Positions 10,251 to 33,358 of a stretch of 64,000 nucleotides of DNA are shown one piece after another (position 1 is the first letter of the stretch; each line of letters opens with the position of its first letter). The position numbers and the translations under genes are program-made. The stretch spans positions 2,480,001 to 2,544,000 of the forward strand of contig NZ_CP070491.1 of NCBI RefSeq assembly GCF_016925495.1, read 5' to 3'. The DNA comes from Methylococcus sp. EFPC2 (GTDB lineage: Bacteria > Pseudomonadota > Gammaproteobacteria > Methylococcales > Methylococcaceae). The notes beneath the pieces are model-generated. The model did no database searches. It was not told the DNA's origin and saw only the letters and a list, made by a program, of their open reading frames with translations.

Positions 10251-10931
10251 ATGAACTCTCATGAGAATGGATACGACATTGTTTTGGCAGATACACCCGA
10301 AAGCAAGAGGATACACTTTAAGCTTCGGTATGACGTCTACTGCCTTGAAAAAGGGTACGAAGAAGCGAAAAAATTCGTCGATCAATTAGAAGTTGACGAG
10401 TATGACGATACATCGGCCCATTTCCTGATTCGCTGCAGGGCTACGCAGTCATGGATTGGCACATATAGGATAGTTTTCAATCGCTTCAATGAACTACCGC
10501 TCAGCAAACATGCTTCAATATATCCCGAGCATATTCCAACGCACGGAGGAATAAGCGCCGAATTTTCTCGTCTAGCAATTCTGCGTCGATTCCAAGTCCC
10601 CAAGAATGGAGCAATCACCGATGCACAGTTTGAGTGCCACATCTTAATGAAAGCCATCCACAGCGGTATTAGCTATTCGAGACAGAAGGGGGCGATGGAC
10701 GTTGTTTTCTTCTGCCAACGATCGCTGGGCAGAGTGGTCGATAAGCTAGGGCTGGTAGTAAAGCAAATTGGCCCGAAGTCTCAATATCGAGGATCCCGTT
10801 ATCCATATCTAGGGCGGCTTAACGACTTTCAAAACGGCTTCACCTCCGAGATTGCTTTGCAATGCTTCAAGCAGCACGGAACTTACTACCACTACTCAGA
10901 TTACTTCCATCCTCGGGTCATGGCCGCATAG
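10251..10931 (+). CDS. PEP-CTERM/exosortase-associated N-acyl amino acid synthase-like acyltransferase (copy 1)
   Basis: A 226-residue protein resembling the FeeM/NasR-like acyltransferases linked to PEP-CTERM/exosortase systems. These share the GNAT/LuxI-type fold and transfer a fatty acyl group, probably from acyl-ACP, to an amino acid. Diagnostic stretches are LRYDVYCLEKGYEE near residue 25, EVDEYDDTSAHFLI near residue 45, a G-YRIVFN segment, then LPLSK and AEFSRLAI. A purine-rich GAGAGAAAGAG precedes the ATG. The acyl chain and amino acid cannot be read from the sequence. A second, divergent copy lies at 12257-13036, so two substrates are possible. Confidence 0.82.
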   Translation: MNSHENGYDIVLADTPESKRIHFKLRYDVYCLEKGYEEAKKFVDQLEVDEYDDTSAHFLIRCRATQSWIGTYRIVFNRFNELPLSKHASIYPEHIPTHGGISAEFSRLAILRRFQVPKNGAITDAQFECHILMKAIHSGISYSRQKGAMDVVFFCQRSLGRVVDKLGLVVKQIGPKSQYRGSRYPYLGRLNDFQNGFTSEIALQCFKQHGTYYHYSDYFHPRVMAA

Positions 10932-11299
10932 TTCTTATGCACGAAACATTTACACATTTCGTCGCTTGCTGCGGACCCAAACGACCAATACCGTGAAAAA
11001 ATTTGAAACGTGGGTTATAGAATCTACAGCAGCCCCGGCGACAATAGCCAGCAATTCGTCTATTTCTGATAGACACCGCCCAGCAACTCACCTTTCAACC
11101 TCCATTTACCGTGCCTCGAAACGCAATCCGGCAAGCCCACATTTTTTTCAAAAAGCCGGTTTTTCGCGACATTGACACACGACGTGGCACAGTTCCCGCT
11201 TGAAATGCCCCGAGCCCTGTTGACAGCCCCACTTAGCGCATCATCATTCAACCGCTCCTCGACTTCCGGGAACATAAGCGAGAGCACGTGCAGAACATC
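10932..11299. other. Non-coding stretch between acyltransferase 1 and the IS3 relic
   Basis: No gene is recognised. The only notable element is a sigma-54-like sequence at 11185-11200, listed separately. Confidence 0.45.
11185..11200 (+). promoter_or_regulatory. Possible sigma-54 promoter-like site
   Basis: TGGCAC at 11185-11190 is followed by CGCT, with GG and GC separated by the required 10 bases. The -12 element (CCGCT) is poorer than the consensus TTGCT, and no gene starts close downstream. It may be a remnant of a lost PEP-CTERM gene or chance. Confidence 0.25.
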
Positions 11300-11976
11300 G
11301 CATCCGCTTCGACCGGACGGCAAAATGGGATCCCCCCAAATCCTGCGCGAACCGCGACGACATAGGGACCATACCATCAACCGAAAACGGATCAACCGGC
11401 TGAATGGGCGTCATGACCCTTGCCTCAGCGGAACTAAGCCCGATACATACCACCCACCCTCATCCGCACAGCACCCCAAAAAACCGCACCTACTGCAAGG
11501 CAAGATCCTTGAGCGCCTTAACCAGGTCGGGTCGACTGACATCACCCCTATGTGCCCATGGCCAAGGGAGATGTGTATCTGGCCGCAATCCTGAACGGGT
11601 ATTCCCGGCGCGCGCTGAATTGGCTTGGATCAACACTCTGGAGACCGCAGTCCGTGTGTCGGCGCTCCAAGAGCGCCTTGGCAAGCTGTGGCCACCCCGA
11701 GTTTTCAACATGGGCCAAAAGGCGCCCAATTTACCGGGGAAGCCTTCACAAACACGCTCAAGGCCCACGGCATCGCCATTAGTACTTGACCGGCAAAGGC
11801 CAGACGTTGGATAACGTCTTCGTCGAACTCCTAATGGCGAACGCTGAAGTACGAGCACATTTACCTGAATCCAGCGGAGAACGGTACCGACCTCAAGCCC
11901 AGACTGGCAACCTATATCACTTGGTACAACGGGAAACGACTACATTCCCGCATCGACGAGAAAACGCCTGATTGCT
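11300..11976 (+). pseudogene. Decayed IS3-family transposase (OrfB) remnant
   Basis: The remnant is read by joining frames. INRKRINRL is followed by a frameshift, then HPKKPHLL, NQVGSTDIT (IS3 consensus NQVWSTDIT), MAKGDVYLAAILNGYSRRALNW, AQFTGEAFTNTLKAHGIAIS, GKGQTLDNVFVE, LKYEHIYLNP and finally WYNGKRLHSRIDEKTP. The order and spacing match the DDE integrase half of an IS3-family OrfB, but at least three frameshifts or stops interrupt it. The 5' boundary is approximate, no OrfA is visible and no terminal repeats were identified, so the copy is dead. Confidence 0.8.
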
Positions 11977-12065
11977 GAACAACAACCCCGTTCAGAGCTT
12001 ACAACCCCATTAGACTGTCTGAACGATGGGGACAACCTCATCCATAACGTGCGCACCATCGTCGG

Positions 12066-12183
12066 GGCGCCTCGAAAAACCTGTTCGCTCATGCTTCGAC
12101 AGGCTCAGCACGAACGGAACAAATTGATTTTCATAGGTCCGTTCGCACTGAGCTTGTCGAAGTGCGAGGTTTTTCGAGGTGCC
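12066..12183. repeat. Long imperfect inverted repeat (REP/MITE-like)
   Basis: The left arm, beginning ggcgcctcgaaaaacctg, pairs with the right arm, whose reverse complement begins ggcacctcgaaaaacctc. Both arms continue through a GCTTCGACAGGCTCAGCACGAACGG-type segment, leaving a central spacer of about 15-20 bases. The whole unit can fold into one long hairpin. Its outer bases resemble the ends of the IS5-type element at 37695-38689, so it could be a miniature derivative or an independent intergenic repeat. Confidence 0.75.
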
Positions 12184-12256
12184 CGTCGGTTGACAAATCG
12201 GAAAAAGCACGCTTTTCTCAACACAACCAGACATGAAGAGGACCCGGAGAATGCTC

Positions 12257-13036
12257 ATGCCTTCGATACGCGAAAGCTTTAACAAATACTTTGAAATCGT
12301 ACCGGCGATTACAGAAGACCTACGGAAGCTCGGATTTCAGATACGCTATCAGGTGTATTGCGAGGAGCTCGGCTTCGAAAATAAAGCCGATTTTCCGGAT
12401 GGCTATGAAATAGATGAATACGACCACCGCTCTTACCTTTGTCTTCTACGGCATAAGGAAAGTCAAAAGTACGTGGGGACCGTAAGACTGGTTACCAGCA
12501 ACTTATCATCCCATCGTCACGAATTGCCTTTCGAGCGATATTGTACTGTCGATCGCAACATTGTCGACATGGACAGCCTTCCTCCCCGCAGCTATGGCGA
12601 AATTTCCCGCTTGGCAGTAATTTCCGCGTTTCGCCGCCGCGCGGGCGAAAGCACCACCCCCTATCCTACTGTCCCAGAAAGTATCGAATCACAACCCTCA
12701 TCACAGCTTGATCGACGAAGCATTCCGCATATTGCTCTTGGACTCTATCTCGCTGCCGCCGCAGTAGGTTTAAATCTTGGCATGGAGCGGGCATTCGCCA
12801 TGATGGAGCCTAGCCTCGCACGACGACTTAAGGCTTTCGGTATTCATTTTGAACAAATTGGAGCCGCGGTAGAACACCGCGGGTTACGCGGCCCTTTCCA
12901 GATCACCCGGGAAAGCCTGGAGAAACACCTTTCCTCCGAAATCCACGAACTATTAACCGATATAACAAAGGGAGTGGAAGAATTCACCCATATCTCCCCG
13001 GAACTGGATCAAAACGAGAAGCGCAGCTCACTGTAA
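12257..13036 (+). CDS. PEP-CTERM/exosortase-associated N-acyl amino acid synthase-like acyltransferase (copy 2)
   Basis: A 259-residue relative of the protein at 10251-10931, with the same signature order: IRYQVYCEELGFEN, then EIDEYDHRSYLCLLRH, VGTVRLVTSN, LPFERYC and YGEISRLAVISAFRR. It has an extra low-complexity insert after the RLAVI motif (a Pro/Ser/Thr-rich stretch), a frequent variable region in this family. I start at ATG 12257, with GGAG 8 bases upstream, rather than at the ATGs at 12233 or 12251. A TTGACA at 12190-12195 may be part of its promoter. The last 28 bases overlap the end of the convergent DUF1302 gene. Likely product: an N-acyl amino acid, substrate unknown. Confidence 0.83.
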   Translation: MPSIRESFNKYFEIVPAITEDLRKLGFQIRYQVYCEELGFENKADFPDGYEIDEYDHRSYLCLLRHKESQKYVGTVRLVTSNLSSHRHELPFERYCTVDRNIVDMDSLPPRSYGEISRLAVISAFRRRAGESTTPYPTVPESIESQPSSQLDRRSIPHIALGLYLAAAAVGLNLGMERAFAMMEPSLARRLKAFGIHFEQIGAAVEHRGLRGPFQITRESLEKHLSSEIHELLTDITKGVEEFTHISPELDQNEKRSSL

Positions 13037-14412
13037 ATCCGGTCCTTTTCATTATATTGACCAAAAACGCCTTGCCGACCACCACCGAAAGCGTCTATCC
13101 CGTTAACCCACCGCCAATTCGTCGTAAACTCCCAAGTGAGCTTAGTTTGCAACATCCAATCGTTATGATTGAAGCCGTGCACATAAAGCACCTCCGGCTC
13201 TAGCTTAGGATGTAGTGCTCGCGTACTGAATAAAAATGAGACTCCCGAATCAACCCTGTCCGCAACGACGTCTCTATGCCAGTCCGTAATTACGCTCTGA
13301 AAGAACTGAATATTAAAGCGAGTATTTTCCAACTCCTCAAGCGTATAATCAATACCAGCAATATAATCTAGGATATCCTGACCAACTAAACCATCACTAT
13401 CCCGCTGATCGGTAACAGATAGTGGCCTACCCATAGAATAAACAGCTTCCGCCTTAAAAACCGCGGTACGCGAAATGTCCTTCGCCATGGTTACGCCGAA
13501 TTGCTGTATGCGCTTGTGGATCGGAGTAAAGGTAATCACTGCTTCCGACTCCCTTACAGTTCTGCGAAACGAAGGAGAAAGTTCCGGTGTGCTATAGTAA
13601 AAAAGTGAGGCATCCCAGCCATTCTTCAAATACGAAGTACGCACCCCATAAGCAGAGTTGCCCAAGGTTTGCGATGGCGCTTTGTCGTCGTAAGTAATCG
13701 TACGAAATCCCGAAATATCAGGGGTAGTAAACGGATAAAACTCGGAACCTACCTTGCCGATATCATTAACCGTTGGCACAGGCACCCAAACAAACTCGGC
13801 ATGCAAGTCTGCATGGAAGTATTCACTCCTAATGGCCCATTGAGGTATTCGCAGGAGATCAAAATCGGGGAGAATAAACTGGCGAAGATCTTTGGCAGAT
13901 ACCACATCAGCAACAAACAGACCAACCATCTCTCCCCAAATTATATGTTGGCGGCCAACGCGAAAATCCCAATCACCCGCCGAAAAATCCAAGTAAGTTT
14001 CTCGTATCGAGAAATCAAAGCGCTGATCATTGCGGACCGAGGAAGAGTAATAATTGGTAAGATCATAAATTGGGTCATATGTAAACCGAATATTCGCAAC
14101 CCAATTTACACTTTTACCCACTTCCCCCTTACTGCCGACTTCAAATATGTTCCTGAATTTCGACCAATGACCGGGACCTGGCCACGTATAGGCCAACTCG
14201 CTTTGGAGGAAACCCTTGATCGGCGGCAAGGTGAAGTCATCTTCTCGAACAGAAGAGGAATTTTTCCCGCCGACCGACGACTCGCTTTTCTCTTTTTCGA
14301 TCTCGAACAGATCACCAAAACTTTTCGGTTCTTCGGCGGCGGCAATCGAAGCAAAGCTAATTGCAATCAAGAGTAAGTGCTTCACATGAAATTTGCTGGC
14401 GATGATCATCAT
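13009..14412 (-). CDS. DUF1302-family outer-membrane beta-barrel protein
   Basis: A 467-residue exported protein. The N-terminal signal peptide (basic start, HLLLIAISFASIAAA core, cleavage near A-E-E) is followed by alternating-hydrophobic strands and a terminal Phe (RFSF), the C-terminal signature of outer-membrane barrels. The stretch GRQHIIWGEMVGLFVADVVSAKDL is characteristic of DUF1302. Members of this family often accompany LolA-like proteins or RND/ABC exporters and are presumed to move hydrophobic compounds at the outer membrane. It is somewhat short for the family. It is followed upstream on the same strand by a LolD-like ATPase after 219 bases, suggesting one transport unit. Confidence 0.85.
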   Translation of the reverse strand: MMIIASKFHVKHLLLIAISFASIAAAEEPKSFGDLFEIEKEKSESSVGGKNSSSVREDDFTLPPIKGFLQSELAYTWPGPGHWSKFRNIFEVGSKGEVGKSVNWVANIRFTYDPIYDLTNYYSSSVRNDQRFDFSIRETYLDFSAGDWDFRVGRQHIIWGEMVGLFVADVVSAKDLRQFILPDFDLLRIPQWAIRSEYFHADLHAEFVWVPVPTVNDIGKVGSEFYPFTTPDISGFRTITYDDKAPSQTLGNSAYGVRTSYLKNGWDASLFYYSTPELSPSFRRTVRESEAVITFTPIHKRIQQFGVTMAKDISRTAVFKAEAVYSMGRPLSVTDQRDSDGLVGQDILDYIAGIDYTLEELENTRFNIQFFQSVITDWHRDVVADRVDSGVSFLFSTRALHPKLEPEVLYVHGFNHNDWMLQTKLTWEFTTNWRWVNGIDAFGGGRQGVFGQYNEKDRIYSELRFSF

Positions 14413-14631
14413 GCGAATCGATAGCTTACGATACTGTTAGAGTACAACCGAACTTCTCAAAAAGCACTTACTTAGTAGAACTAATTTACCTTCCGGACAG
14501 GGGTTTTACCGGAGTACCCGAGCGACCCTCCTCGCCAGATCACCGACCATTTCCGCTGGATAACGCCTGAATCGTATTTGCGGGCATAAACGTATGTTAA
14601 GAACATCTGAAATTCGATTTCATCCATACGC

Positions 14632-15369
14632 TTAGTGCTCAACATCACCCAAAAACGGGCTGTATATGCCCCGTATGGTATCCGCGGCTTGATCACTCGC
14701 AACAAGGCGCCCGTCCGAAATTTTCACAATTCGGTGAGCCATACCCATAACACGTGGGTCGTGGGTTGAAAAAATAAATGTGGTCTGTTCGGCTTCATTG
14801 ATTTGTTTCATTAGCTCCAGCACCTCCTGACCCGTTTTGGAATCAAGGTTCGCAGTCGGTTCGTCCGCGAGCACAATTCGCGGATTACCAGCTAAAGCCC
14901 TAGCTATAGCAACACGCTGCCGCTGCCCTCCACTTAGCTCATTCGGCCTATGCCCGGCGTAAACGCTCAATCCAACCATATCGAGATAATATTTCACTCG
15001 TTCGGATCGGAGCTTGCGGCTCATATCCTTTCGAAATAGCAGGGGATATTCGACGTTTTCCCAAGCCGATAAAACAGGCAAAAGATTGAAAGTCTGAAAT
15101 ATGAAACCAATGGTATGCAATCGAATATCAGCAAGTTGGTTGGCCCCACAACGACTAACCTCCATGCCACCGATAAATATCTGGCCACTCGACGCCTTAT
15201 CGATACATCCTATCAAGTTAAGTAGCGTAGACTTGCCGCTACCGGAAGGGCCTGCGATTGCAAGAAACTCACCAGCCTCAATGGATAACGACACGTCGAC
15301 CAGCGCATCAACCCGTTGCTTACCTAGCAAATAGCTTTTGGAGGCATGAAAAACCCTAACGACTTCCAT
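14632..15369 (-). CDS. LolD/MacB-type ABC transporter ATPase
   Basis: A 245-residue ATPase with Walker A GPSGSGKST (residues 40-48), Q-loop near residue 92, signature LSGGQ (145-149), Walker B IVLADE and D-loop with NLDSKTG, then the H-loop STHD. The VxKSY.......AL-DVSLSI start is typical of the LolD/MacB/FtsE group that pairs with FtsX-like permeases. AGG lies 6 bases before the ATG. The two permeases at 17519-20103 on the same strand are the obvious partners, although an IS630 relic and a reversed LolA-like gene now separate them. Likely role: energising extraction of a lipid or lipoprotein from the inner membrane. Confidence 0.9.
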   Translation of the reverse strand: MEVVRVFHASKSYLLGKQRVDALVDVSLSIEAGEFLAIAGPSGSGKSTLLNLIGCIDKASSGQIFIGGMEVSRCGANQLADIRLHTIGFIFQTFNLLPVLSAWENVEYPLLFRKDMSRKLRSERVKYYLDMVGLSVYAGHRPNELSGGQRQRVAIARALAGNPRIVLADEPTANLDSKTGQEVLELMKQINEAEQTTFIFSTHDPRVMGMAHRIVKISDGRLVASDQAADTIRGIYSPFLGDVEH

Positions 15370-15782
15370 ATTAACCTAGTTACTGAACAACATTTGCTTG
15401 AACATAGCATAAATTCTGTCAGAAAGCAGTCCGATACCAATTTCCCCACGGAAAAAACGATGGATTCCGGCAACTTCCCGTCATTACTTGCCCTTTCCAC
15501 GCTGGTCACGACAAACTAACGTGCTAGACTTACCGTTAATCTACATACACATTCACGAAAAATCCCTACGCAAAGAGCCGTAACAAGTTGATTCATTAGC
15601 TACCAAAAGAACTGATGGAGCATGCCAATGGCGAAACTATTAATCTGCCCCCCCTAAATAGCGTACATACTGAGGGAGCATGTATCCCGATTCTAGGTAC
15701 GTTTTTGTACGGAAAATAGTGGCTAGTTATGTGCTTCGCGTCAAGTTGATTTGCCGTAAACTCGCGACCTGCTCGGCCAAGA
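15370..15782. other. Non-coding stretch upstream of the IS630 relic
   Basis: No gene is recognised. It contains the ribosome-binding region of the ATPase gene at its left edge and probably the decayed left end of the IS630 relic, whose terminal repeat could not be located. Confidence 0.45.
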
Positions 15783-16468
15783 ATGATCGAGCGAGCAGTG
15801 GCACGGATTGCACTGCTTGCGCTGAAAGACGACGGGCGTGAATGCATGTTCGGGATCATCAAAAGGGCGAAGATTGGCACTAGCGTGATCAGGGCGGAGA
15901 CGATTGTGTTGTGCTGGCCGCCCAGGCACAGCGTCCAATTCGCGGGGCAGCAGCAGGTCCTGCACCGTGAAGCGACGCGGATTCGGCGGCGCAAGTAGCT
16001 GAAATCCGGTATGGTAAGCGTGCCGGACCGGCCAGGAATCGGGGCGCCGAGCAAACTAATGGACGACCAATGCCAGCAATTTAGCAATTTGGTAGAGAAT
16101 GAAGCGCTGTTAACGCGTCTGGAGCGTGACTACTTGGTGGTCATAGTTCGGACCACGTTGTCGAGCGGATTAGCAAGCCGATGGTGGCGATTCTGAACAA
16201 TGCCTTGATCTGGACAGCGAAAGCGCAGGAACCGAATTTGAAACCATTGATGTATAAAGGTATGACGTTTTGCTTCCCGCCGCAGTACAACCCGAAGTTG
16301 AACCGGATCGAAATTCTATGGAAAAAGATAAAACTCGAATGACTGCCACCCTAATCCTTCACGCCGAAAGAACTAGAACAGGCGATATACAAGATCGGGA
16401 CCGTTTTCGGCTCAGACACCAACTGGCTGTCTGCTAGGAACTTAATAGTGCGGCATTTAGTTAGCTAA
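15783..16468 (+). pseudogene. Decayed IS630-family transposase, internally deleted
   Basis: The N-terminal helix-turn-helix part is recognisable as SVIRAETIVLC....HSV....VLHREATRIRRRK and SGM-SVPDRPGIGAPSKLMDDQCQQF. After a deletion, the C-terminal DDE part reads KPMVAILNNALIWTAKA, MTFCFPPQYNPKLNRIEILWKKIKLE, then FTPKELEQAIYKIGTVFG. Premature stops (for example TGA where EW is expected after KLE) and frame changes show that it is dead. It is unrelated in detail to the second IS630 element at 20350-21430. The relic sits between the ABC ATPase and the LolA-like gene. Confidence 0.78.
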
Positions 16469-16547
16469 CCGTAGGCACAAAGAACAGAAGCGTTACGACG
16501 AACAGCTTGCTTCAACACATTAAAATCCAACTTTTCAAAGGCTTTTC

Positions 16548-17327
16548 ATGATTATCAGGCATTCACAAAAAAACGTACCGCACCGATTCGTCAGGTTATC
16601 TTTTGGAATCGCCGTGGCGCTGATGCTAGGTGCTATTTTTATACACCCTGCCGCAGCTGAAGATCCCGTCGAATTAGTTACAAAAGCAGATCACATTCGT
16701 TTTCCTGCCACCGACTTTCAGGTAAAAGTGGTAATAACCACGACCTCGGCCGACTCCCAGCCAGATGTCCACGAATATCAAGTCCTCTCAAAAGGCAACG
16801 AAAATACGATTGTCCACACAACTGAACCGGCGAGCGACCGGGGACAGATTTTGCTGATGAAGGGTCGCGATCTCTGGGTCTTCATGCCCTCTGTGTCTCA
16901 GCCAGTACGCCTACCGCTTTCACAGAGACTAACCGGACAAGTGGCAAATGGTGATATGGCGCGCGCCAATTTTACCGGCGACTACACTCCTACGCTGTTA
17001 CGCACTGATACGATCAATAACACATCGTATCATGTCCTTGAACTTAATGCCGTTGATCGAACCGTAACCTATCACCGAGTACTTTACTGGATTGATAAAA
17101 CCAGCTATCGGCCGTTTAAAGCCGAGTTCTACTCGCTTTCAAATCACCTTATAAAGACCGCCCATTACCGCAATTTTAAACAGATGGAGGGCGAAATACG
17201 GCCTACAGAGCTTCTCTTGATTGATGCTTTAAGCAACGAACAGTCGTTGTTGGTATACTCTGATATGAAACGCCGCGAATTACCTGATAAAATCTTCACC
17301 AAAGACTACCTAAAAAAACTGGAATAG
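16548..17327 (+). CDS. LolA-like outer-membrane lipoprotein-sorting protein
   Basis: A 259-residue exported protein with a signal peptide (RFVRLSFGIAVALMLGAIF, cleavage near PAAA-ED). It resembles the LolA_like group of periplasmic carriers. Features are the early helix and strands with DFQVKVVI, a VLSKGNENTIVHTTEPASDRGQILL region, LWVFMPSVSQPVRLPLSQRL (highly typical) and YRPFKAEFYSLS. AAAGG lies 7 bases before the ATG. It probably shields an acyl chain while crossing the periplasm between the LolC-like permeases and the DUF1302 barrel. It is oddly on the plus strand, whereas all other genes of the transport set are on the minus strand. Confidence 0.86.
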   Translation: MIIRHSQKNVPHRFVRLSFGIAVALMLGAIFIHPAAAEDPVELVTKADHIRFPATDFQVKVVITTTSADSQPDVHEYQVLSKGNENTIVHTTEPASDRGQILLMKGRDLWVFMPSVSQPVRLPLSQRLTGQVANGDMARANFTGDYTPTLLRTDTINNTSYHVLELNAVDRTVTYHRVLYWIDKTSYRPFKAEFYSLSNHLIKTAHYRNFKQMEGEIRPTELLLIDALSNEQSLLVYSDMKRRELPDKIFTKDYLKKLE

Positions 17328-17518
17328 TTGTGAGAGTGAATGGATTAGAATACCCCACCTCTTCTGCCACGACAGCTTACTGGCCCCAAGCGCTATTATT
17401 TGCTGTAATATTGGCGCTTAATCGGAAAAATCTTTTCCCATTCCGTTAAGTATGAGCATGCTATATTTATGATTTAGGTCTGCGGCAACTGAGTTGAGAT
17501 AACATGACACTGCCCCAG

Positions 17519-18730
17519 CTAAATGTTATTACGCAAAGCGTCAACAACGGGCAGCCGGGACGCTCTAATGGCAGGAATTACTGCCGCAGCGCTGGTCGCG
17601 GCAAATCCGACCAACGCAGCAATCACGATAACTTCCGGCACGATGCGAATATAGGCTGAATACCCCAACTCCGAATTCGGGGGGGGAGGCATGGGAATGC
17701 CAATTTCCGAGATCGCCCAAGCGGCGCCAATACCCACGACAACGCCAAGACCCGCACCTATAAGGCCTAATAGCGTGTACTCACTTACGATCAATCGAAA
17801 CACATAGCTACGACGGTTTCCGAGTGCCATTAATGTACCTATTTCTCCGACTCGTTCATAGATCGCCATATTTACGCCGTTGGCGACACTCAGCAAAACC
17901 ATGATAAGTATGATCAGTTGCAGAACGCCAAATTGGCTTTTATACAAGTCAACGACCTTGCTATAGAAATCGGCCAGCTCGTACCATGCCTTAGCCTCGT
18001 ACCCCATCCCAGGAAGATACGTTTTCATCTCCGCAAGTACTGCATCGGTGCGAACAGAGTCATTTAGCAAAACCACCACGCTGTGCACTCCCGTCGTAGC
18101 CAACAGGTCCTGTGCCGCCTGCAACGAAATCCGGACCGCTCGGTCATCAAACTCTTTCGAAAAACTTTGGAAAATACCTACCACTTCAAATTCGAGACTA
18201 TTCAGTGCCCCTTCAGGCGTATTCACGAGCAACGTAAGAAAATTTCCTGGCCTTAAATTTAAAGACTTGGCTACACCTTTCCCTAGTAAAATCCCCGTAG
18301 CGTCCGAGTCCACCAATTGGCGTCCTTCCACGATGGACAAAAACGTACCAAGGCGGTTTTCTTTATTAGCCTCAATTCCTTCCCCAATAATAGGAAGATC
18401 CGCCTTGCGATTATTGGCTAAACCGGAAAAATTAAGACGCGTCATCACATCGTTAACGTCATGAGTCCCTTTCAACCGATCCAGCAATATACCGGGCGAC
18501 TCCATGAGATATTTGAATGGGTCGCGCTGGCCGACCTCGTAATACCCTGAGTGATAAATCTGAATATGACCCAACTGCGAATGAATGGTAGCTTCGCGCA
18601 ATTGGATGAATATGTCCTCCACAAAACCACCGGTTAGAATAATGCCGGCCACGCCAAGAGCAATGGCTGTCAGAGTCAGCAGGGTACGGCCCGCATGCCT
18701 GAAAATGTTACGGAAAGCGAGTCGAAACAA
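17519..18730 (-). CDS. LolC/MacB-type ABC transporter permease (FtsX superfamily), second of two
   Basis: A 403-residue permease with one N-terminal membrane helix (TLLTLTAIALGVAGIILTGG), a large periplasmic MacB-PCD domain (about residues 40-260) and three C-terminal helices with the FtsX pattern (LIILIMVLLSVANGVNMAIYERVGEIGTLMALG). PMPPPP follows the third helix, as in its partner. The start appears to be a TTG at 18730 with GAGG 9 bases upstream. It lies 146 bases downstream of the paralogous permease, so the two probably form a LolC/LolE-like heterodimer driven by the ATPase at 14632-15369. Confidence 0.9.
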   Translation of the reverse strand: MFRLAFRNIFRHAGRTLLTLTAIALGVAGIILTGGFVEDIFIQLREATIHSQLGHIQIYHSGYYEVGQRDPFKYLMESPGILLDRLKGTHDVNDVMTRLNFSGLANNRKADLPIIGEGIEANKENRLGTFLSIVEGRQLVDSDATGILLGKGVAKSLNLRPGNFLTLLVNTPEGALNSLEFEVVGIFQSFSKEFDDRAVRISLQAAQDLLATTGVHSVVVLLNDSVRTDAVLAEMKTYLPGMGYEAKAWYELADFYSKVVDLYKSQFGVLQLIILIMVLLSVANGVNMAIYERVGEIGTLMALGNRRSYVFRLIVSEYTLLGLIGAGLGVVVGIGAAWAISEIGIPMPPPPNSELGYSAYIRIVPEVIVIAALVGFAATSAAAVIPAIRASRLPVVDALRNNI

Positions 18731-18876
18731 ATCGTTATACCTCGTATTTTGGACCGTGAGAACGATAACAAACGTGACTCTCCGCCTTCAATTATGTCCT
18801 CTCCATAAAGCGGAATATTCGTCATGCCACTCTAGTTTAATGGCATTTCACTCCCTCGGCTAACTCTTAACTTAAA

Positions 18877-20103
18877 TTACCGGCCATGGCGCAAAGCGTC
18901 CACAATTTGAAGATTAGCGGCTTTCCATGCAGGATAAATGCTTGCAACCACCGTCGTCCCTAAAGCTAAGACCAGCGAACCGACGACCAACTCGGTCGTT
19001 ACGCGAATCTCAGCCGTGTAACCAACCGTCATTCCTGGCGGAGGAGGCATAGGAATACCTATTTTCGAGATGATCTCCGCTAGAGAAACCCCGACAACCG
19101 CACCGACCACACCCCCGAATAAGCCCAGAACAGTTCCTTCCGCTACAAATAAATGCATCACATTTCTATGCTTTAATCCCAGAGCCATAACGGTTCCAAT
19201 TTCTCGCGTACGCTCGAATACGCTCATAATTAGAACATTTGAAATCGTTAAAACGATGATAACGCCGATAATAACGCGTACAATCGACATTTGTCGGGTA
19301 AAAAGACGAGCGGTTTTGTTGTAAAAATCGGCACGCTCATTCCAAGGAACAACTTCGAGGTCCGTTATCCTTAACTCAGCAATCAATCGTTTCAACGACT
19401 CGGTAAAGTGTCCTGTATGCTCCGTTTTATCAAGGAGAATAACCCAAACTTGGTTCCCTGATATGCGCAACAATTTTCTAGCCAATCCAATAGGTATCCT
19501 CGCAACAGAATCATCGTAAGACTTATCTGCCGTCAGAAAAATCCCGTCGACCGGCGTTTCGATAGCATTAAACCCCTTGTCTCCCGCGTTAGTCATTAAT
19601 ACAACGGGGTCGCCAACTTCTACACCTAAACTTTTCGCGAGGCCTGTTCCTATCAATATGCCTGCAGTTTCTTCGCTCGAAAATCCAGCGCCCTTAATAA
19701 TATGAAGTTCGTGGCTTACATTCGCTTCTAATTTCGGGTCTACCCCTTCGCCCAAAAATGAAATTGAGGTATCGCCATGACTTATCAAGCCACCAAATGA
19801 TAACCGTGGGGCCATGGCCTTAAAATTCGCACTTTGTCGAATTGTGTTTAGTATTGGCAAATCCACCGGGAGCAAATACTCAAACGGAGCCGCAGCTCCT
19901 TTGTCAAAGTAACCGCGCTTGGTAAGCTGAACATGACCGGACTGGGACTCGATATATGACTCGCGTGTCGACCAGAGTATCCATTCGATAAACCCGCCTG
20001 ATAACAGCAAGGCCATCACTCCAAAGGCAATCGCTATGATGGCGACCCCGCTGCGGCGCTTGTGGCGAATCACATTACGTATTGCCAGCTTGAATTGAGT
20101 CAT
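18877..20103 (-). CDS. LolC/MacB-type ABC transporter permease (FtsX superfamily), first of two
   Basis: A 408-residue paralogue of the permease at 17519-18730. An N-terminal KLAIRNVIRHKRRSG cytoplasmic stretch and helix are followed by a periplasmic domain and three C-terminal helices. The FERTREIGTVMALG motif and the PMPPPP segment are shared. I start at ATG 20103 (TQFKLAIRN follows), because the longer TTG version only adds an unconserved tail. A weak promoter-like pair (TTGCTT / TATAAT on the minus strand, 15-base spacer) lies at 20321-20347, hard against the end of an IS630 element. Predicted to work with its partner permease and the LolD-like ATPase. Confidence 0.9.
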   Translation of the reverse strand: MTQFKLAIRNVIRHKRRSGVAIIAIAFGVMALLLSGGFIEWILWSTRESYIESQSGHVQLTKRGYFDKGAAAPFEYLLPVDLPILNTIRQSANFKAMAPRLSFGGLISHGDTSISFLGEGVDPKLEANVSHELHIIKGAGFSSEETAGILIGTGLAKSLGVEVGDPVVLMTNAGDKGFNAIETPVDGIFLTADKSYDDSVARIPIGLARKLLRISGNQVWVILLDKTEHTGHFTESLKRLIAELRITDLEVVPWNERADFYNKTARLFTRQMSIVRVIIGVIIVLTISNVLIMSVFERTREIGTVMALGLKHRNVMHLFVAEGTVLGLFGGVVGAVVGVSLAEIISKIGIPMPPPPGMTVGYTAEIRVTTELVVGSLVLALGTTVVASIYPAWKAANLQIVDALRHGR

Positions 20104-20349: not shown

Positions 20350-21430
20350 TATTAACCCGGCCATAAAATATCGTATGCACTAAACGGCATACTTGATAGG
20401 AGGCACTTGAAATAAGCGCGGATGCGGGCGGGCCGTTTTTGGATCGAGCGCAAGTGCGAAGTCACCTTGCGCTTCAAGTGAGCCCCGTCGCGCACGGATT
20501 CGGCGGCACTCATCCGCGTGTTGATGTCGGCGTTGAGGTATTCATCCGGATTGAGCTCGGGGGAATAGCTGGGCAAGAAAAACAGCTCTATCTGGTCCAT
20601 CTTGCCGGCCAGCCGTTCTTTGACCGCCTGGCTGTGATGAACCCGCAGGTTATCGAGGACTAGAATCACCTTCCGCCCCGCTTCACGGACCAGCCGCTGA
20701 AGAAATTGGATGAAGACGTCGGCCGTGAGCGTTTCTCGGTACATCATGAAGCGCATCTTGACCTGGTTGGTAATGGCCGAGTGAGATTGATACGTTCCCG
20801 CTTGGACTGGGGCAGCCCCAGCACCGGCGTTTTCCCCCGCGGCGCGTAACCGCGCGGATAATGCTCGACCGAACTGACCGCCGTTTCATCGCCCCGACAG
20901 ACTTCCGCCCGCTGAGCCACTTTTGTACCACCGCCGGTCGTTGCTCGAAGGCGCGTTTGAGCGGGCGCTGCGGCGTGAATCCCCAGCTCTTCAGATAGTT
21001 TCTGACCGAGCGCACTGGGAGATTCGCGCCAAAACAGGCCTGTATATGCGCCAGCACCGCCTGCGCACTCCATAAGGCAAAGTGCAGTTTCACTTGATCC
21101 GGCGTTTTGTCCACCAGGTCTTTCTGGAGAATGCTTCCATGAGCGGGCGTGAGGCGGCGACCGTTGCCTTTGGGCCGACCTCGCTTGGCCTCTTGCACGC
21201 CATACCCCGTTTCGGCTTTTAGCAACCAGTCTTGTTACCGCGGGGCGGCGTAACCCGAGTTCCTTCGCGATCGCCGTCTGACTATGCCCGCGCCGGTGCG
21301 AGCGGATGACCGTACGACGTCATTGCTACCGTGCCGCAGGATCCAGTTTTCGAGCATCGATTCGTTCTGCTTCCATGCCCAAATTTTACAAGACTACGTA
21401 CGGTATCGGTATTATTTGGCCGGGCTAATA
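20350..21430. mobile_element. IS630-family insertion sequence with matching ends, inactive
   Basis: The left end (tattaacccggcca) and the right end (tggccgggctaata) are inverted copies with one mismatch in 14. They bound about 1.08 kb and end in TA as expected for this family. The only gene is a frameshifted transposase on the minus strand, whose stop codon lies inside the left repeat. Confidence 0.82.
20352..21376 (-). pseudogene. Frameshifted IS630-family transposase
   Basis: Reading from ATG 21376, the protein starts MEAERIDARKLDPAAR. Helix-turn-helix motifs SHRRGHSQTAIAKELGLRRPAVTRLV and KRGRPKGNGRRLT follow, then the winged segment VRSVRNYLKSWGFTPQRPLKRA. A later frame carries the DDE core KVILVLDNLRVHHSQAVKERL and FFLPSYSPELNPDEYLNADI. 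Frame breaks lie near 21320, near 21225-21260 and between about 20760 and 20900. All major domains survive, so inactivation is relatively recent compared with the other relics. Confidence 0.85.
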
Positions 21431-23098: not shown

Positions 23099-25894
23099 AT
23101 GCAGAAAAAACTGTTTCGGAAATATAACTCGGCCGCCGCCATCGCTTGTTTTATCGGAATAACAATCACCAGTTGTGATAAATATTTGACGGATACTGAG
23201 CATCTCGCCAAAGCAAAAGAGTCTCTCGACGCCGGCGACCTTCGCACGGGAGTTATCGAATTAAAGGGAGCATTACAAAAAAATCCCGACAACGCTGAAG
23301 CACGGCGACTATTAGGAGAAATCGATGTAACGCTTGGTAATGGCGGGGATGCGGAAAAAGAACTGCGACGAGCACTGGAGCTGGGCGTAGCGAAGGAAGC
23401 GATTCTGGTCCCTTTAGCTGAAGCCCTCCAACTTGAAAACAAGCATCAACAAATACTGGATGAAATCACTATTCCTCCTACTTTTTCAGCAACCGACGGC
23501 GCAAAGCTTACGGCGTATCGTGGTGACGCGTGGCTGGCTCTCGGCAAACCGCAACAAGCCAGTACCGAATATCACCAGGCATTATCCATCGACGCTAATT
23601 CTGCGTTCGCTAAGCTTGGGTTGTCCCGTATAGCTCTAGCCGAGAATAGAATCGACGATGCTCTAAAATTGGCAACAGAAGCCGTGGAATCGGCACCCAA
23701 CGAAGCCAGGGCATGGAGTTTACAGGCAGAATTGTATCGAGCGAAAAGTGATTTTCCAAAAGCAGAGGACAGTTATACAAAAGCCATCGAGAGGCGGACC
23801 TTAAATCAACTTGATCGTGCCAATCGCGCCATAGTCCGAGTTGACTTGAAGAAACTCGACTTAGCAAAGGAGGATATTGAAATACTAAAAAAACAAGCCC
23901 AAAATTTGTTTTTGACTCATTTTGCCGACGGCGCCCTGGCATATGCTCAAAATAAATTTGCGGAAGCTCAAGGGGCTTTCGAGCAGTCGCTCAAACTGAA
24001 TGACAAATACGCACAAACACACTATTTCTTGAGCCTTTCTCATCTAATGCAAAACCATTTGGCACAAGCAGAGGATGAAATAAATAGATACCTGTCTATT
24101 ATTCCACGATCGGTAAATGGCTATAAACTATTGGCAACGATCAAATATCGCCTAAATGACCCAGAAGGAGCAAAGAGAACCCTGCAACCGGTACTGGCAC
24201 AATTTCCGGATGATATTGCAACCCTTAGGTTAATAGGCAATATCGAGCTGGCCCAGGGAAACGAAACGAAGGGAATCGAGTATTTGGAAAAAGCCGTCAA
24301 TTTGAACCCGAATACTGCCGACTCCCATATCGACTTAGGGATGGGATTGATGCGTAGCGGTAATCAGGAAAAAAGCTCAAAGGAGTTCGAGGCGGCCATT
24401 CAAATTGATCCTCAGTCTCCCCAACCCGCTATTTTGCTGGCCTTATCTCAGATTAGCGCAAAAGAATACGCCAAGGCTGGGGAAACTATTCAGGCCCTCA
24501 AGGAACGTTTGCCGAAGAGCCCAGGCCCTTGGAACCTGGAGGGTTTATCGCATTTAGGCCAAGGTCAGCAGACACATGCCGAGCAAGCCTTTAAACAAGC
24601 ATTGACCCTTGAACCGGGTAACTCCATGGCGTCGGACAGACTCGCGCAACTAGCTTTAAAAGATAAAAGATTCGATGTGGCCCGTAACTATTACCAAGAG
24701 GCGTTGCACGCGCACCCAAACGATCTCGATATTCAACTCAGGCTGGCCCAATTGGACAGCTTGGAAGGCAAGCCGTCGGATATGGAGGCCAAGTTAACGC
24801 AAATCGTGCAAGATCATCCGGATGTCTTGCCGCCTCGGATATTACTTGCCCGTCACTACTTGCGATTCGGGCAGCCTCGTCGCAGCCAAACCCTGCTGGT
24901 GGAAGTGCGCCCGAGATATCCGGATAGTCAGGATCTGTTGGCCACCCTGACCGAGGCGCAGCTGGAAGATAACCTCGCAACCCAAGCGCTGGAAACGGCT
25001 AAAGCATTGGCCAAAGAGGCGCCCCAGTCTGCTGCTGCACACCTGTTGCTGGCTGCTGCATATGAGAATAACCGTGATGCCAAAGGCATGCGAACAGCGC
25101 TGATGCGTTCATTAACTCTCGACCCCAAGCTTTTCCGGTCCCGGATAGCAATGGTCAGACTATTGGTTCAGGAGCAGAAAAACGCAGAAGCGGAAAAACA
25201 ACTGACTGCCCTAGTCAACGATGAACCCGAAAATGCCGATGTGTTGAGTCTGCAAGGATGGTATCTCACTGTGCTACAAAATCGCCCCAAGGATGCGATC
25301 ACCCCGTATCAAAAAGCGTTCGAGAAAGCGCCTAGTACCTCGGCGGTCACCAAACTCGCTCAAACACAATGGTTGGCTGGAGACCGGGATCGTGCTTTGG
25401 CAACCTTGGAACAATGGAACAAACAACATCCCAACGATGCATTCATTCACTATGCGCGGTCTAATTTGTATACACAGCTCGGCAAGGATAAAGCGGCCAT
25501 TGAACAATTGGAGCAAACCATAAAGATCGATCCTAATTATATCCTCGCCCTGAACGACCTGGCTTGGCTCCTGAGGAAGTCGGAGCCAACCAAAGCCCTG
25601 GAGTATGCCGAAGAGGCCGTCGCCAAAGCACCGAAATCTCCGCGTCTGATGGATACCCTGGCCATGGTGTTGATTGAAAAATCGCAGGCCGATCGCGCCT
25701 TGAGCGTCATCCAGGAGGCCGCTGCGCTCGCACCGAGCAATCCCTTGATCCGCTATCACTTAGCAATCGCTCAGGAAAAGAAGGGCGCCAAGGAGGATGC
25801 GCTGAACACCTTGAACGATTTATTGAGCAGAAAGGACGACTTTGACGAGCGGAAAGAAGCGGAGGCACTGCTCACCAAGCTCAAAAAAAGGTAA
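23099..25894 (+). CDS. prsT: PEP-CTERM system TPR-repeat lipoprotein PrsT
   Basis: A 931-residue exported lipoprotein. The signal sequence ends in a lipobox I-T-S-C with the lipidated Cys at about residue 26. The rest is an almost uninterrupted series of TPR-type helical hairpins, for example KESLDAGDLRTGVIELKGAL, NPDNAEARRLLGEI and NPNTADSHIDLGMGLM. Length and repeat layout match PrsT, a marker of exosortase/PEP-CTERM exopolysaccharide loci. It is thought to act as an assembly scaffold at the membrane; the exact role is not established. No exosortase or prsK/prsR gene is nearby. A PEP-CTERM substrate gene follows 333 bases downstream under its own promoter. Confidence 0.92.
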   Translation: MQKKLFRKYNSAAAIACFIGITITSCDKYLTDTEHLAKAKESLDAGDLRTGVIELKGALQKNPDNAEARRLLGEIDVTLGNGGDAEKELRRALELGVAKEAILVPLAEALQLENKHQQILDEITIPPTFSATDGAKLTAYRGDAWLALGKPQQASTEYHQALSIDANSAFAKLGLSRIALAENRIDDALKLATEAVESAPNEARAWSLQAELYRAKSDFPKAEDSYTKAIERRTLNQLDRANRAIVRVDLKKLDLAKEDIEILKKQAQNLFLTHFADGALAYAQNKFAEAQGAFEQSLKLNDKYAQTHYFLSLSHLMQNHLAQAEDEINRYLSIIPRSVNGYKLLATIKYRLNDPEGAKRTLQPVLAQFPDDIATLRLIGNIELAQGNETKGIEYLEKAVNLNPNTADSHIDLGMGLMRSGNQEKSSKEFEAAIQIDPQSPQPAILLALSQISAKEYAKAGETIQALKERLPKSPGPWNLEGLSHLGQGQQTHAEQAFKQALTLEPGNSMASDRLAQLALKDKRFDVARNYYQEALHAHPNDLDIQLRLAQLDSLEGKPSDMEAKLTQIVQDHPDVLPPRILLARHYLRFGQPRRSQTLLVEVRPRYPDSQDLLATLTEAQLEDNLATQALETAKALAKEAPQSAAAHLLLAAAYENNRDAKGMRTALMRSLTLDPKLFRSRIAMVRLLVQEQKNAEAEKQLTALVNDEPENADVLSLQGWYLTVLQNRPKDAITPYQKAFEKAPSTSAVTKLAQTQWLAGDRDRALATLEQWNKQHPNDAFIHYARSNLYTQLGKDKAAIEQLEQTIKIDPNYILALNDLAWLLRKSEPTKALEYAEEAVAKAPKSPRLMDTLAMVLIEKSQADRALSVIQEAAALAPSNPLIRYHLAIAQEKKGAKEDALNTLNDLLSRKDDFDERKEAEALLTKLKKR

Positions 25895-26053
25895 CGCTTT
25901 AGAAGTCAGCATGCCATACCAATCGGCGTCGAGTACATAGCGTGGCGAGGTCGCTTGAGAGTGTCAGTTTTTTTTACAAAACGCCGTTCTGGGCACTAAG
26001 GCTCACGAGAATAATCAATTAACTAATTGATATAATTAGAAAAATTTAGCCAT

Positions 26054-26070
26054 GGCACAACTCGTGCTTC
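26054..26070 (+). promoter_or_regulatory. Sigma-54 (-24/-12) promoter of the PEP-CTERM gene
   Basis: TGGCAC at 26054-26059 followed by GTGCTT at 26065-26070; the invariant GG (26055-26056) and GC (26067-26068) are separated by exactly 10 bases. It lies about 160 bases upstream of the PEP-CTERM coding start. Sigma-54 promoters upstream of PEP-CTERM genes are known to fit control by the PrsK/PrsR two-component pair. Confidence 0.75.
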
Positions 26071-26227
26071 ATATAGATCGCTAAGACTAAGGCTTCGAAT
26101 TGGTTTCAAGCATCCCGAGCGATGGATGATGAGCCGGTTCTAAATCTTCTGGATTTATAAACGCAAGACGCAGCGAACGCTTGTCGCTTGACTTGCACCA
26201 GAATCTAACCACTTTAGGAGTACTATT

Positions 26228-27034
26228 ATGAACAAGAAACCCCTTCTCCTGGGCACGGCCTTTGCTATGGCAATGGCTGTGTCTGTAAACGCAAGCGCGG
26301 ACAGGGTCATCGATCTGTTTTCCGTCACTCAAGCCAAGTTCTTTGACGTCACCACAAATGGTGTGGCCGAAAGCCGTACGGTCAATGACCCGAATCCCTA
26401 TCCGAGCCCCTTGAACTCGATCATTGGCGATAATCGTGACATCTCGGTAAACCTGATCAACTCTCCGGATCCGGCCAATGTTAACGCGAGCGCCAGCGTC
26501 ACCGCCGGCGTATACAACTTCAGCCAGGATACGCAAGCCGGCGCCGAGGCCCAGATTCAGTGGGACGGCAGTAACGTTGGTGTTGAAGGCGCGGACGGCG
26601 GCATCTTGAACCCCACCGGTTTGGGCGGTATCAATCTGTGGGACACCGGCAGCCTGTTCAGCTTCGATGTGATTTTCGCCGATCAAGGCTTTACGGCTGA
26701 CGTGATTGTATACACGGATGCGACTCACTTCTCGAGAATCAGGATCGATACGGTGGTCCCGGTCAGCAACCAGACCTTCTCTCTCGCCTTCGCGGCTTTC
26801 GAGAATGCCGCATTTGTTGCCGCCAACGGTGGGGCTGGCTCGGCTGGCTTGGCTGACCTGAACAACGTCGGCGCCCTGCAAGTCATACTGAACCCGCTGG
26901 GTACCGGCCTGTCCATCGACCTGACGATCGACAACATCACCACCGTCCCGGAACCCGCCACCCTGTCCCTGCTCGGCATGGGCCTGCTGGGCATGGGGGC
27001 TAGCGCTCGCAGAAGGAAGCTAGCCAACGCCTAA
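26228..27034 (+). CDS. PEP-CTERM sorting-domain protein
   Basis: A 268-residue exported protein. The signal peptide (NKKPLLLGTAFAMAMAVSVNASA) precedes a Gly/Asn/Asp-rich beta-type body, and the C-terminus is a canonical PEP-CTERM signal: VPEPATLSLLG at residues 240-250, a hydrophobic helix, then a basic RRRK cluster. An exosortase would cut near the PEP motif and release or anchor the protein outside the inner membrane. AGGAG precedes the ATG by 8 bases. The gene is monocistronic, with a sigma-54 promoter upstream and a strong terminator downstream. The body domain was not recognised. Confidence 0.93.
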   Translation: MNKKPLLLGTAFAMAMAVSVNASADRVIDLFSVTQAKFFDVTTNGVAESRTVNDPNPYPSPLNSIIGDNRDISVNLINSPDPANVNASASVTAGVYNFSQDTQAGAEAQIQWDGSNVGVEGADGGILNPTGLGGINLWDTGSLFSFDVIFADQGFTADVIVYTDATHFSRIRIDTVVPVSNQTFSLAFAAFENAAFVAANGGAGSAGLADLNNVGALQVILNPLGTGLSIDLTIDNITTVPEPATLSLLGMGLLGMGASARRRKLANA

Positions 27035-32900: not shown

Positions 32901-33263
32901 TTTTACTGACTCAGGGACTTGACCGACCAGAGCCTTGCAGGTCAATACCACGTCAAGAGCGGCATCGTGTGCGAGAAAGTTCAGCCGCTCAGCCGGATAG
33001 GAAGGGTCCATAGGAACATAGACCCCACCGGCCCACCAAACACCAAGCATGGATACTATCCACGCCACACTACGTTCGCACAGGACGCCAACACCCTTAC
33101 CCGTCCCGATACCCGCGTCGCGGAGGTGGGCAGCTAAGACCTCTACACGTGCCAGAAGCTCCCCGTACGTTACGGTGCCGTCGTCGCCGATGACCGCAAC
33201 GGCAGTTGGCGCCTCGGCGGCGGCGGCGCGGATGGCATGCAAAACGGTATCCCACTGATTCAT
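29985..33263 (-). CDS. Single-module NRPS with domain order adenylation-carrier-condensation
   Basis: A 1092-residue enzyme. The adenylation domain covers about 1-510: A3 YTSGSTGTPKGV (151-162), A4 FDPSVMD (196-202) with the Asp that binds an amino acid amino group, A5 NVYGPTE (295-301), A7 YRTGD (388-392), A8 GYRIEPGEIE (416-425) and A10 PNGKVDR with Lys498. The carrier domain covers about 525-595, with the phosphopantetheine Ser554 in GGHSL. The condensation-like domain covers about 610-1060, with DHMVFDG (782-788) in place of HHxxxDG; the catalytic second His is kept. There is no thioesterase. I start at ATG 33263 with AAAGAG 6 bases upstream. It probably activates one amino acid and joins it to a partner substrate; product unknown. 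Confidence 0.9.
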   Translation of the reverse strand: MNQWDTVLHAIRAAAAEAPTAVAVIGDDGTVTYGELLARVEVLAAHLRDAGIGTGKGVGVLCERSVAWIVSMLGVWWAGGVYVPMDPSYPAERLNFLAHDAALDVVLTCKALVGQVPESVKISIAVDELLSPSESSVDELPHGNDVAYLIYTSGSTGTPKGVLVEHRSLVSFVPAINEILGMQGRDRLLQFVSPNFDPSVMDVALTLVSGATLVLRSPRMADSFSRFLDGLRQSRVTMASLPTAFWHGLVDALDESFELSLPAELRLIYFGGERADPERLIRWREKFGDRVKLVNVYGPTEVTIGATAWDASEWLRGHGGLSEAPIGVPLRTVEAHVFDEAGRECPVNVAGELYLGGVQLARGYHQRVEATEKAFVTLNGERPSTRLYRTGDRAVWRDDGMLRCLGRIDDQLKIRGYRIEPGEIEAVLRKQPDIKDAVIVGHRDTIGELQLVGYVVSFAERAFNVQSLMQAIRHELPAHMVPAVLTPMDRLPITPNGKVDRHKLPPPNWGELRSRGTPPKGEIEQKLAAIWAELLHVPQIYREDDFFDDLGGHSLLAVQMLTLVDRRLRANLELEAVLTHKTLAGLASVIAEFLSSPSPELPRTAPAASAPIRRLSLLQTDFMQYEALQALLGLGVNPFVAPVCLRLRGPLDVAALTAVLNDIVQRHEVLRAILPRTPRPGFWPISWVVRRLFDQPSISRWMIRIGARQFLRRDWLRSAPAVKIMAEMPVCLEVQTYVRLSDALAAADRDFWPCYSRMPGASFRARLVGLGEHDHVLFIAVDHMVFDGYSVQVLINDLTAFYRSRVLAEAAPPALAMQYFDWVAQSLMEAPKLSVKALEHWRTVYRRVGPVTSVTLPFHHSVWPPRGFRERWHQQREVLAGDEFARVRKFAADHGVTVFVLMMSIFVAALSRRAGASTVSVMTNVANRNNAHAREMIGLIANIFPVVAECSGKTLSDVIQQVKRAVAFGVESQAIPWPSLRSQMMAEINDAQFPRNPLLAPQVLFDFYALRPAQEMVPGLSFEEVYIPDPGGSWLLQFIAVQEGQSLSIHVKHSPDLYETVEVDHLLRDFVAVLSALPESSSIPLSALSFAT

Positions 33264-33358
33264 GTCGATCTCTTTCACAGGAAAGATCCCTATCGTCAGG
33301 AACGCGTCCCCTGTTAGGAAAAGGAAACGGAACGCCGATCGCGGTTCCGAGTCAACTC

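Follow-up and report, generated by a model that had tools for sequence, protein, structure and literature searches.

By which route might lipids derived from N-acyl amino acids cross the envelope of bacteria with exosortase A (XrtA)? The question is raised by a locus of Methylococcus sp. EFPC2, in a window of 64 kb (the whole stretch of DNA that was analysed, G000:C1:2,480,001-2,544,000) from a genome of 4.56 Mb. Between 10.2 and 20.1 kb of the window, two N-acyltransferase genes adjoin genes for a DUF1302 outer-membrane barrel, an ATP-binding cassette (ABC) ATPase, a LolA-fold carrier and two permeases. The last five are called the set below. The explanation that we favour, with moderate confidence, is that the set forms a dedicated, ABC-driven, Lol-like envelope route for N-acyl-amino-acid-derived lipids in exosortase-A bacteria. 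The seven genes, by position in the window, are:

10251..10931, + strand: N-acyltransferase 1, TIGR03694 type (226 amino acids; 125.5 bits; PF13444; motif with Glu104)
12233..13036, + strand: N-acyltransferase 2, TIGR03694 type (267 amino acids; 245.5 bits; motif with Glu123)
13009..14412, - strand: DUF1302 outer-membrane beta-barrel (PF06980; predicted barrel; signal-peptide-like N-terminus by eye)
14632..15369, - strand: ABC ATPase of the LolD/MacB/DevA type (PF00005; 214-218 bits, below all cut-offs)
16548..17327, + strand: LolA-fold carrier (PF17131; relative of 3BUU; signal-peptide-like N-terminus by eye)
17519..18730, - strand: FtsX/MacB-type permease 1, LolC/E-like (PF12704 and PF02687; lolCE 87 bits)
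18877..20103, - strand: FtsX/MacB-type permease 2, LolC/E-like (PF02687 and PF12704; lolCE 115 bits)

Judged from sequence comparison, the set is a real unit, with putative orthologues in many Betaproteobacteria. The comparison covered a class sample of 369 genomes, an order sample of 379 genomes (the order of Nitrosomonas europaea, evenly drawn, 90% completeness requested) and named loci, the best 80 of 121, which we take to belong to betaproteobacterial groups or which are titled just Proteobacteria or Pseudomonadota. Fifty named genomes were picked by hand from these 80 loci for their carrier gene, with isolates and longer contigs preferred. The named-locus stretches reach up to 10 kb per side, and many contigs are short. 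Order-sample neighbourhoods, ~20 kb per side where contigs allow, come from 30 of the 39 set-bearing genomes, leaving out G385, G387, G389, G394 and G400 (which are among the named 50) as well as G508, G666, G679 and G738. In the class sample, the carrier was found in 13 other genomes at 54-61% identity (at least 270 bits), followed by a gap down to 34%. The barrel, ATPase and carrier genes share one stretch in 12 of the 13 class loci, in 77 of the 80 named loci and in 29 of the 30 order loci, and all five set genes do so in 12, 37 and 27 of these, respectively. Because the first three are co-located in nearly all loci, the genes have not come together by chance. Four remoter LolA/ABC loci (29-34% identity) gave no DUF1302 or acyltransferase match in their stretch by single-sequence search. 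The neighbour-cluster counts understate the set, since both permeases were lumped and members were missed; loci L050-L056 were excluded from this clustering and from the promoter counts given below.

The neighbours of the set suggest its cargo. Read without a prior list, they comprised ThiF/nitroreductase proteins and a synthase of the FeeM family; the one protein tested, from a relative, scored 159.2 bits to the Pfam FeeM model PF21926 (cut-off 27). Synthases were matched by hidden Markov models (HMMs) built here and partly trained on genes near the set, and the matches near the carrier scored 150-412 bits, the threshold being 50. In 22 of the 30 order genomes, a TIGR03694-type or FeeM-type synthase is located no more than 10 kb from the carrier, and in 24 no more than 20 kb. 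By type, the order-sample neighbourhoods hold TIGR03694-type synthases in 12, FeeM-type synthases in 15 and ThiF/nitroreductase proteins in 17 of 30 cases. The last were identified from 3 proteins, two of them by their first 420 residues, and their HMM derives from matches to a fused protein, so that a match may be either part. ThiF/nitroreductase also occurs in 12 of the 15 FeeM-type loci, in 10 of them side by side with the synthase and in the same direction. A synthase with ThiF and a nitroreductase makes up the described acyl-oxazolone route of M. tuberculosis and P. rubra, and the same three enzymes are implicated in N-acyl dehydrotyrosines in M. kyonggiensis, Thalassotalea and Stieleria (PMC10404671, PMC12479983; papers are cited throughout for the part of their text that was available). 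FeeM-type genes stand in tandem, two or three together, in 4 of the 30 genomes: G432 (L179/L180), G583 (L185/L186), which has three, G533 (L187/L188) and G447 (L189/L190).

Clustering around XrtA as the sole cause of this neighbourhood is not supported by the XrtA-centred regions, because synthases are far rarer around XrtA than around the carrier. Among 20 set-bearing genomes (N. europaea and 19 of the 30 order genomes), a synthase was present within 10 kb of XrtA in 2, and among 20 XrtA genomes lacking the set in 1, some of these stretches being shorter than 20 kb (the shortest 11.0 kb). Compared with the carrier surroundings, Fisher's test gives 9.5e-6 for the set-bearing and 1.1e-6 for the set-lacking genomes, with kinship ignored. 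Training of the HMMs on set-adjacent synthases could favour the carrier side in this control, but the matches on that side are well above the threshold of 50 bits. In 20 of the 30 genomes, XrtA is over 50 kb away, on a different contig (at unknown distance) or, once, absent, and 16 of these 20 carry a synthase no further than 20 kb from the carrier; the remaining 10 genomes do so in 8 cases.

The history of the neighbourhood was followed on a tree of 44 carriers, labelled from the 30 genomes as TIGR03694, FeeM, both or none. The labels need at least 11 changes (minimum possible 3; mean after shuffling 15.2, with a value as low in 1 of 200), and strong branches force 4 changes for TIGR03694 and 3 for FeeM. 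Because the labels change repeatedly, there is no single frozen gene order. In part the neighbourhood is inherited, in part it has formed anew, and the two synthase families stand in for each other. Strong support is found for 16 of the 41 inner branches of this tree, and the position of the window is unsure.

What do the proteins themselves say? The sequence-only reading had named seven genes here, two acyltransferases, a DUF1302 protein, an ATPase, a LolA-like protein and two permeases, and the family models confirm all of them. Both acyltransferases pass the cut-off of 111.95 bits for TIGR03694 ("PEP-CTERM/exosortase system-associated acyltransferase"). On PF21926 they reach 25.4 and 22.8 bits, under the gathering score of 27, so that their description as FeeM-like is valid for the superfamily and invalid for the family. 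The pattern E-x-[ST]-[RK]-L-A occurs once in each (as E-x-S-R-L-A), and the motif, rather than a structure, is the basis for equating its glutamate with FeeM Glu95. With a looser pattern, this glutamate is found in 47 of 48 TIGR03694-type seeds versus 12 of 18 FeeM-type seeds. In Nas354, changing the corresponding Glu103 to alanine led to loss of the haemolytic and surface-active phenotypes (PMC4897644).

The carrier scores 160 bits to LolA_like PF17131 (cut-off 30), and by profile it matches 3buu with an E-value of 7.8e-113. 3BUU, N. europaea NE2245, was solved as a "LolA superfamily protein" and is close to the carrier, whose model aligns to it with 63% identity and a template modelling (TM) score of 0.96 of the target. 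Against canonical LolA (2w7q), the same model reaches only 0.43 of the query and 0.55 of the target. By its predicted structure, the window carrier has the LolA fold. The DUF1302 protein (PF06980 48.1 bits, cut-off 23.2) is modelled as a barrel, with a mean predicted local distance difference test (pLDDT) score of 81.4 and poor stretches at residues 1-25, 48-56 and 161-183. The structural neighbours of this model are porins, with the higher TM-scores for AlgE (0.54 of the query) and OccAB4 (0.52), and a sequence search for relatives in the PDB gave just two chance-level matches (E 0.57). The scores of the ATPase, 217.6 bits for MacB, 216.2 for DevA and 214 for LolD (cut-off 307.75), all miss the respective cut-offs. 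Both permeases combine MacB_PCD and FtsX domains and have lolCE as their best NCBIfam model, at 87 and 115 bits against a cut-off of 362.45; for permease 2 the nearest solved relatives are LolE, LolF, LolC and MacB, with LolE 7arh as the nearest chain. Since the LolD and lolCE scores miss their cut-offs, the machinery is Lol-like and not LolCDE. The set had also been called a complete Lol-like one, of which "Lol-like" holds and "complete" goes too far, as no LolB was identified (none was searched for).

Under the explanation that we favour, a cytoplasmic synthase, of the TIGR03694 type in the window and of the FeeM type in many relatives, would acylate an amino acid with a long chain. The product would then be desaturated or cyclised by ThiF and a nitroreductase in many relatives, though not in the case of the window. 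The resulting amphipath would reside in the inner membrane, from which the two FtsX-type permeases and the ATPase would extract it by a mechanism like that of LolCDE or MacB. The LolA-fold carrier would ferry it through the periplasm, and the DUF1302 barrel would accept it at the outer membrane. We infer the cargo from the gene neighbourhood, and likewise the direction, the joint action of the five proteins and all transport steps. This cargo has, in our view, about an even chance of being the right one, because a recurrent neighbourhood with two synthase families agrees with a lipid-carrier fold and a lipid-extracting ABC engine. A tie between synthase and exopolysaccharide is supported elsewhere in Methylomonas sp., where growth in the gradient system failed too (PMC11072679). 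The set is a defined gene group, one member of which has a solved close relative (3BUU), and it is testable in culturable ammonia oxidisers and Rhodocyclales.

Several observations weigh against a route for N-acyl-amino-acid-derived lipids. Within 10 kb of the carrier, 8 of the 30 order loci have no synthase, and 6 of the 30 genomes have none within 20 kb (in one of these, G694, the contig ends ~1.4 kb past the carrier). Among the 30 test genomes, two are closely related to earlier loci (more than 1.5 kb, at least 90% identity). The choice of the FeeM-type family was post hoc, since it was picked up among the neighbours of the set, and the 64-kb window itself gave no ThiF, nitroreductase or FeeM match. 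The set and the acyltransferases are more than one transcription unit, with the acyltransferases and the carrier on the + strand and the other four genes on the - strand. A joint site of TTTACA and sigma-54, as expected for shared regulation with PEP-CTERM genes, was found in 0 loci for all seven gene classes of set and acyltransferases (1-93 loci each, dropping open reading frames with a late alignment start or fewer than 200 bases upstream). In the class sample (partner ACYLTRANSFERASES), TIGR03694 passes its cut-off in 47 of the 369 genomes and 36 of these 47 are without an orthologous set, so that most acyltransferase-bearing genomes manage without it. Among the 50 named set-bearing genomes, TIGR03694 is over its cut-off anywhere in the genome in 26 and absent in 24. 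No synthase or ThiF/nitroreductase is near the set in 7 of these 24 (10 when weak FeeM matches are left aside), FeeM elsewhere in the genome not having been searched for.

An obligate pair of set and TIGR03694 is rejected by these 24 genomes. Co-occurrence was the check that the sequence-only reading had proposed, and it went the other way: the set regularly occurs without TIGR03694 acyltransferases. The broader idea that the set serves N-acyl amino acids gains from the synthases within 10 kb in 22 of 30 order genomes and loses its dependence on TIGR03694, which is not required. Where the named genomes have TIGR03694, it is near the carrier in 22 of 26 (flanks up to 10 kb). Where they do not, a FeeM-type synthase, ThiF/nitroreductase or both are near the set in 17 of 24, three of which rest on weak FeeM matches (56, 61 and 72 bits), leaving 14 of 24 as firm. 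All 50 named genomes give at least a weak TIGR03694 match. That such matches are hidden synthases was rejected: 22 of the 24 best matches score 24-40 bits to the TIGR03694-type HMM, 21 of them in proteins of 254-279 amino acids and one in a protein of 316 (L241-L260, L263, L264), and the other two are proteins of 468-493 amino acids with 56 bits to the FeeM HMM. In the class sample, 11 of the 14 set-bearing genomes have TIGR03694, the three without it being 99%, 78% and 64% complete. The association gives 1.3e-8 by Fisher's test overall and 0.024 when restricted to the 45 genomes that have an XrtA-like exosortase.

At the genome level, exosortase A is a tighter partner of the set than TIGR03694. 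The order sample has a carrier orthologue in 39 of 379 genomes (one is split over two pieces, and the other 38 score at least 230 bits) and XrtA over the TIGR03109 cut-off in 89; carrier and XrtA coincide in 38 of the 39 (Fisher's test 2.5e-26, kinship ignored). XrtA is over the same cut-off in 48 of the 50 named genomes. All 14 set-bearing class genomes have an XrtA-like exosortase (TIGR02602) at a limit of 230 bits, fixed post hoc after seeing the lowest-scoring set-bearing genome. For class genomes with TIGR03694, the set is present in 11 of the 24 that have such an exosortase and in 0 of the 23 that have none (Fisher's test 1.4e-4). The sole order-sample carrier genome without XrtA over the cut-off is G424 (L149, L150), in which a TIGR03694-type gene adjoins the carrier on a 6.5-kb contig. 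As a wider sample, the order of G310 was tried; it tests nothing, because it consists of just 4 genomes, all with carrier, XrtA and TIGR03694, and has no negatives.

This genome-level tie favours a rival explanation, in which the set serves exosortase A and ferries PEP-CTERM/XrtA products to the outer membrane, whether processed PEP-CTERM proteins, possibly lipid-anchored, or an exopolysaccharide-linked lipid. The synthases would then adjoin the set because they are also part of the PEP-CTERM/XrtA system. A PrsT-like match no more than ~20 kb from the set, seen in 17 of the 30 order genomes, points the same way, and in the window two genes of this system lie to the right of the set:

23099..25894, + strand: PrsT, a tetratricopeptide repeat protein of the XrtA/PEP-CTERM system (TIGR02917 696.5 bits, cut-off 312.2)
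26228..27034, + strand: PEP-CTERM protein (PF07589 and TIGR02595 over cut-off)

Moreover, in the proposal of Haft 2006 an unknown nucleophile in the periplasm is the acceptor of a transfer, and the outer membrane is reached or crossed (PMC1569441; the terms FtsX, LolA and ABC transporter are absent from its available text). The tie is one-way, however, as 51 of the 89 XrtA genomes in the order sample have no set. The exosortase A of the host genome (TIGR03109 350 bits, cut-off 208) lies ~1.5 Mb from the window, whereas the synthases are close, and few XrtA regions have a synthase as near as 10 kb. The set also lacks the PrsR/sigma-54 sites that the PEP-CTERM gene of the window has upstream (25973-26228), namely TTTACA at -255 and the sigma-54-like TGGCACAACTCGTGCT at -175, a pair of sites described for PEP-CTERM genes in 2006 (PMC1569441). 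In the control, 2 of 2 PEP-CTERM-like genes have the joint site. At the loosest threshold, sigma-54 sites are seen for permease 1 in 16 cases versus 8.3 expected and for the carrier in 12 versus 7.2, all without TTTACA, and shared PrsR/sigma-54 regulation of the set was rejected, as the sites were not found upstream of it. This argument is tempered by prsT, which was likewise not RpoN1-dependent in a published study (PMC9850573), and the regulation result is neither for nor against a role of the set in the PEP-CTERM system. Taking both sides together, we consider service to exosortase A somewhat unlikely, though far from negligible.

Other cargoes have less in their favour. A system for efflux or tolerance of various apolar compounds, similar to AmeABCD with an ABC engine in place, would fit the ATPase, whose scores to MacB and LolD are equally high. 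AmeABCD of Castellaniella defragrans resembles the set in its DUF1302 outer-membrane protein and its LolA-superfamily (DUF1329) periplasmic protein, which act with a resistance-nodulation-division (RND) pump, and deletion of AmeABCD reduces monoterpene tolerance (PMC6394551). It differs, as compared by the text of that paper and not by sequence, in its HAE3 RND engine, the extra AmeC and its monoterpene substrates. A Pfam scan of the seven proteins at 10.2-20.1 kb found no RND protein, the engine there being the ABC ATPase and the FtsX permeases. Among the most frequent neighbour clusters named or tested, no degradation pathway was recognised; synthases, ThiF/nitroreductase and PrsT recur as neighbours instead, and general efflux appears quite unlikely to us. 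The pairing of DUF1302 and LolA-superfamily proteins with an RND pump is already known from AmeABCD. No report of an ABC/LolA/DUF1302 set with synthases or exosortase was seen in the listed open-licence literature, which includes few subscription papers. A second lipoprotein-sorting pathway, for some of the ordinary lipoproteins (PrsT, for example), would agree with the predicted LolA fold of the carrier, with the LolC/E-like permeases and with PrsT, described with a lipoprotein signal (PMC1569441), near the set in 17 of 30 genomes. Every Lol model stays below its cut-off, though, and such a pathway seems very unlikely. LolABCDE and the set share two FtsX-type permeases, a LolD-like ATPase and a LolA-fold carrier; the set differs in a carrier of the PF17131 branch, in neighbours that make acyl amino acids and in its DUF1302 barrel, which to our knowledge is no Lol component. 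Type VII ABC systems such as MacAB-TolC and YbbAP-TesA also have an FtsX/MacB-type permease and a LolD-like ATPase, and we know of no LolA-fold carrier or DUF1302 barrel in either. Finally, XrtA might join PEP-CTERM proteins to a lipid based on an N-acyl amino acid, or a modified one, and the set might carry the anchored proteins outward. If true, this would account for the known link between synthases and exosortase, for the nucleophile postulated in 2006 and for the lack of a path to the cell surface. Since a plain N-acyl amino acid is without a free amine, the lipid would have to offer one on a side chain or have a modified head group, and we give the idea very little credence.

For a Lol-like route of N-acyl-amino-acid-derived lipids, the closest biosynthetic parallels are the tyzABC/oxzAB acyl-oxazolone and the stieleriacine/kyonggic acid clusters, which have a FeeM-type synthase, ThiF and a nitroreductase, as found beside the set in relatives. 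Unlike the loci of these relatives, the window has no match to the tyzABC/oxzAB trio. The available text of PMC12479983 does not mention "transporter" or "export", and mmpL9 is discussed as a cluster neighbour in M. tuberculosis (PMC10404671).

Within the window, a phosphomethylpyrimidine kinase flanks the locus on the left, and PrsT followed by the PEP-CTERM protein on the right. The G+C content drops over ~10-20 kb, from 0.59-0.67 to 0.47-0.51, and transposase-like remnants are interspersed at ~11.5-12.0, 15.7-16.45 and 20.35-21.2 kb. By eye, the broken stretch at 11500-12000 is IS3-like and the one at 15700-16450 IS630-like; the third, at 20352-21225, consists of HTH_33 and DDE_3 pieces. 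Directly upstream of acyltransferase 2 (12090-12190), an inverted repeat with a TTCGACAGGCTCAGCACGAACGG-like unit was seen by eye. The start of permease 2 at 20103 is an in-frame ATG, and its longest open reading frame begins with TTG at 20133. The host genome has a third TIGR03694 gene, the best-scoring one (282.7 bits), at 3.704 Mb (L054:9612-10373). It is distant from both the set and exosortase A, with no set, ThiF or FeeM match in the surrounding 20 kb. Further to the right in the window (29985-37497) stands a row of genes for an A-PCP-C nonribosomal peptide synthetase, a thioester-reductase-like protein, an AMP-ligase and a WbuX-like protein. Homologues of the ligase and the reductase are near the set in 5 of the 30 order genomes, and a WbuX-like gene in 3; the row is possibly a further lipid or peptide pathway.

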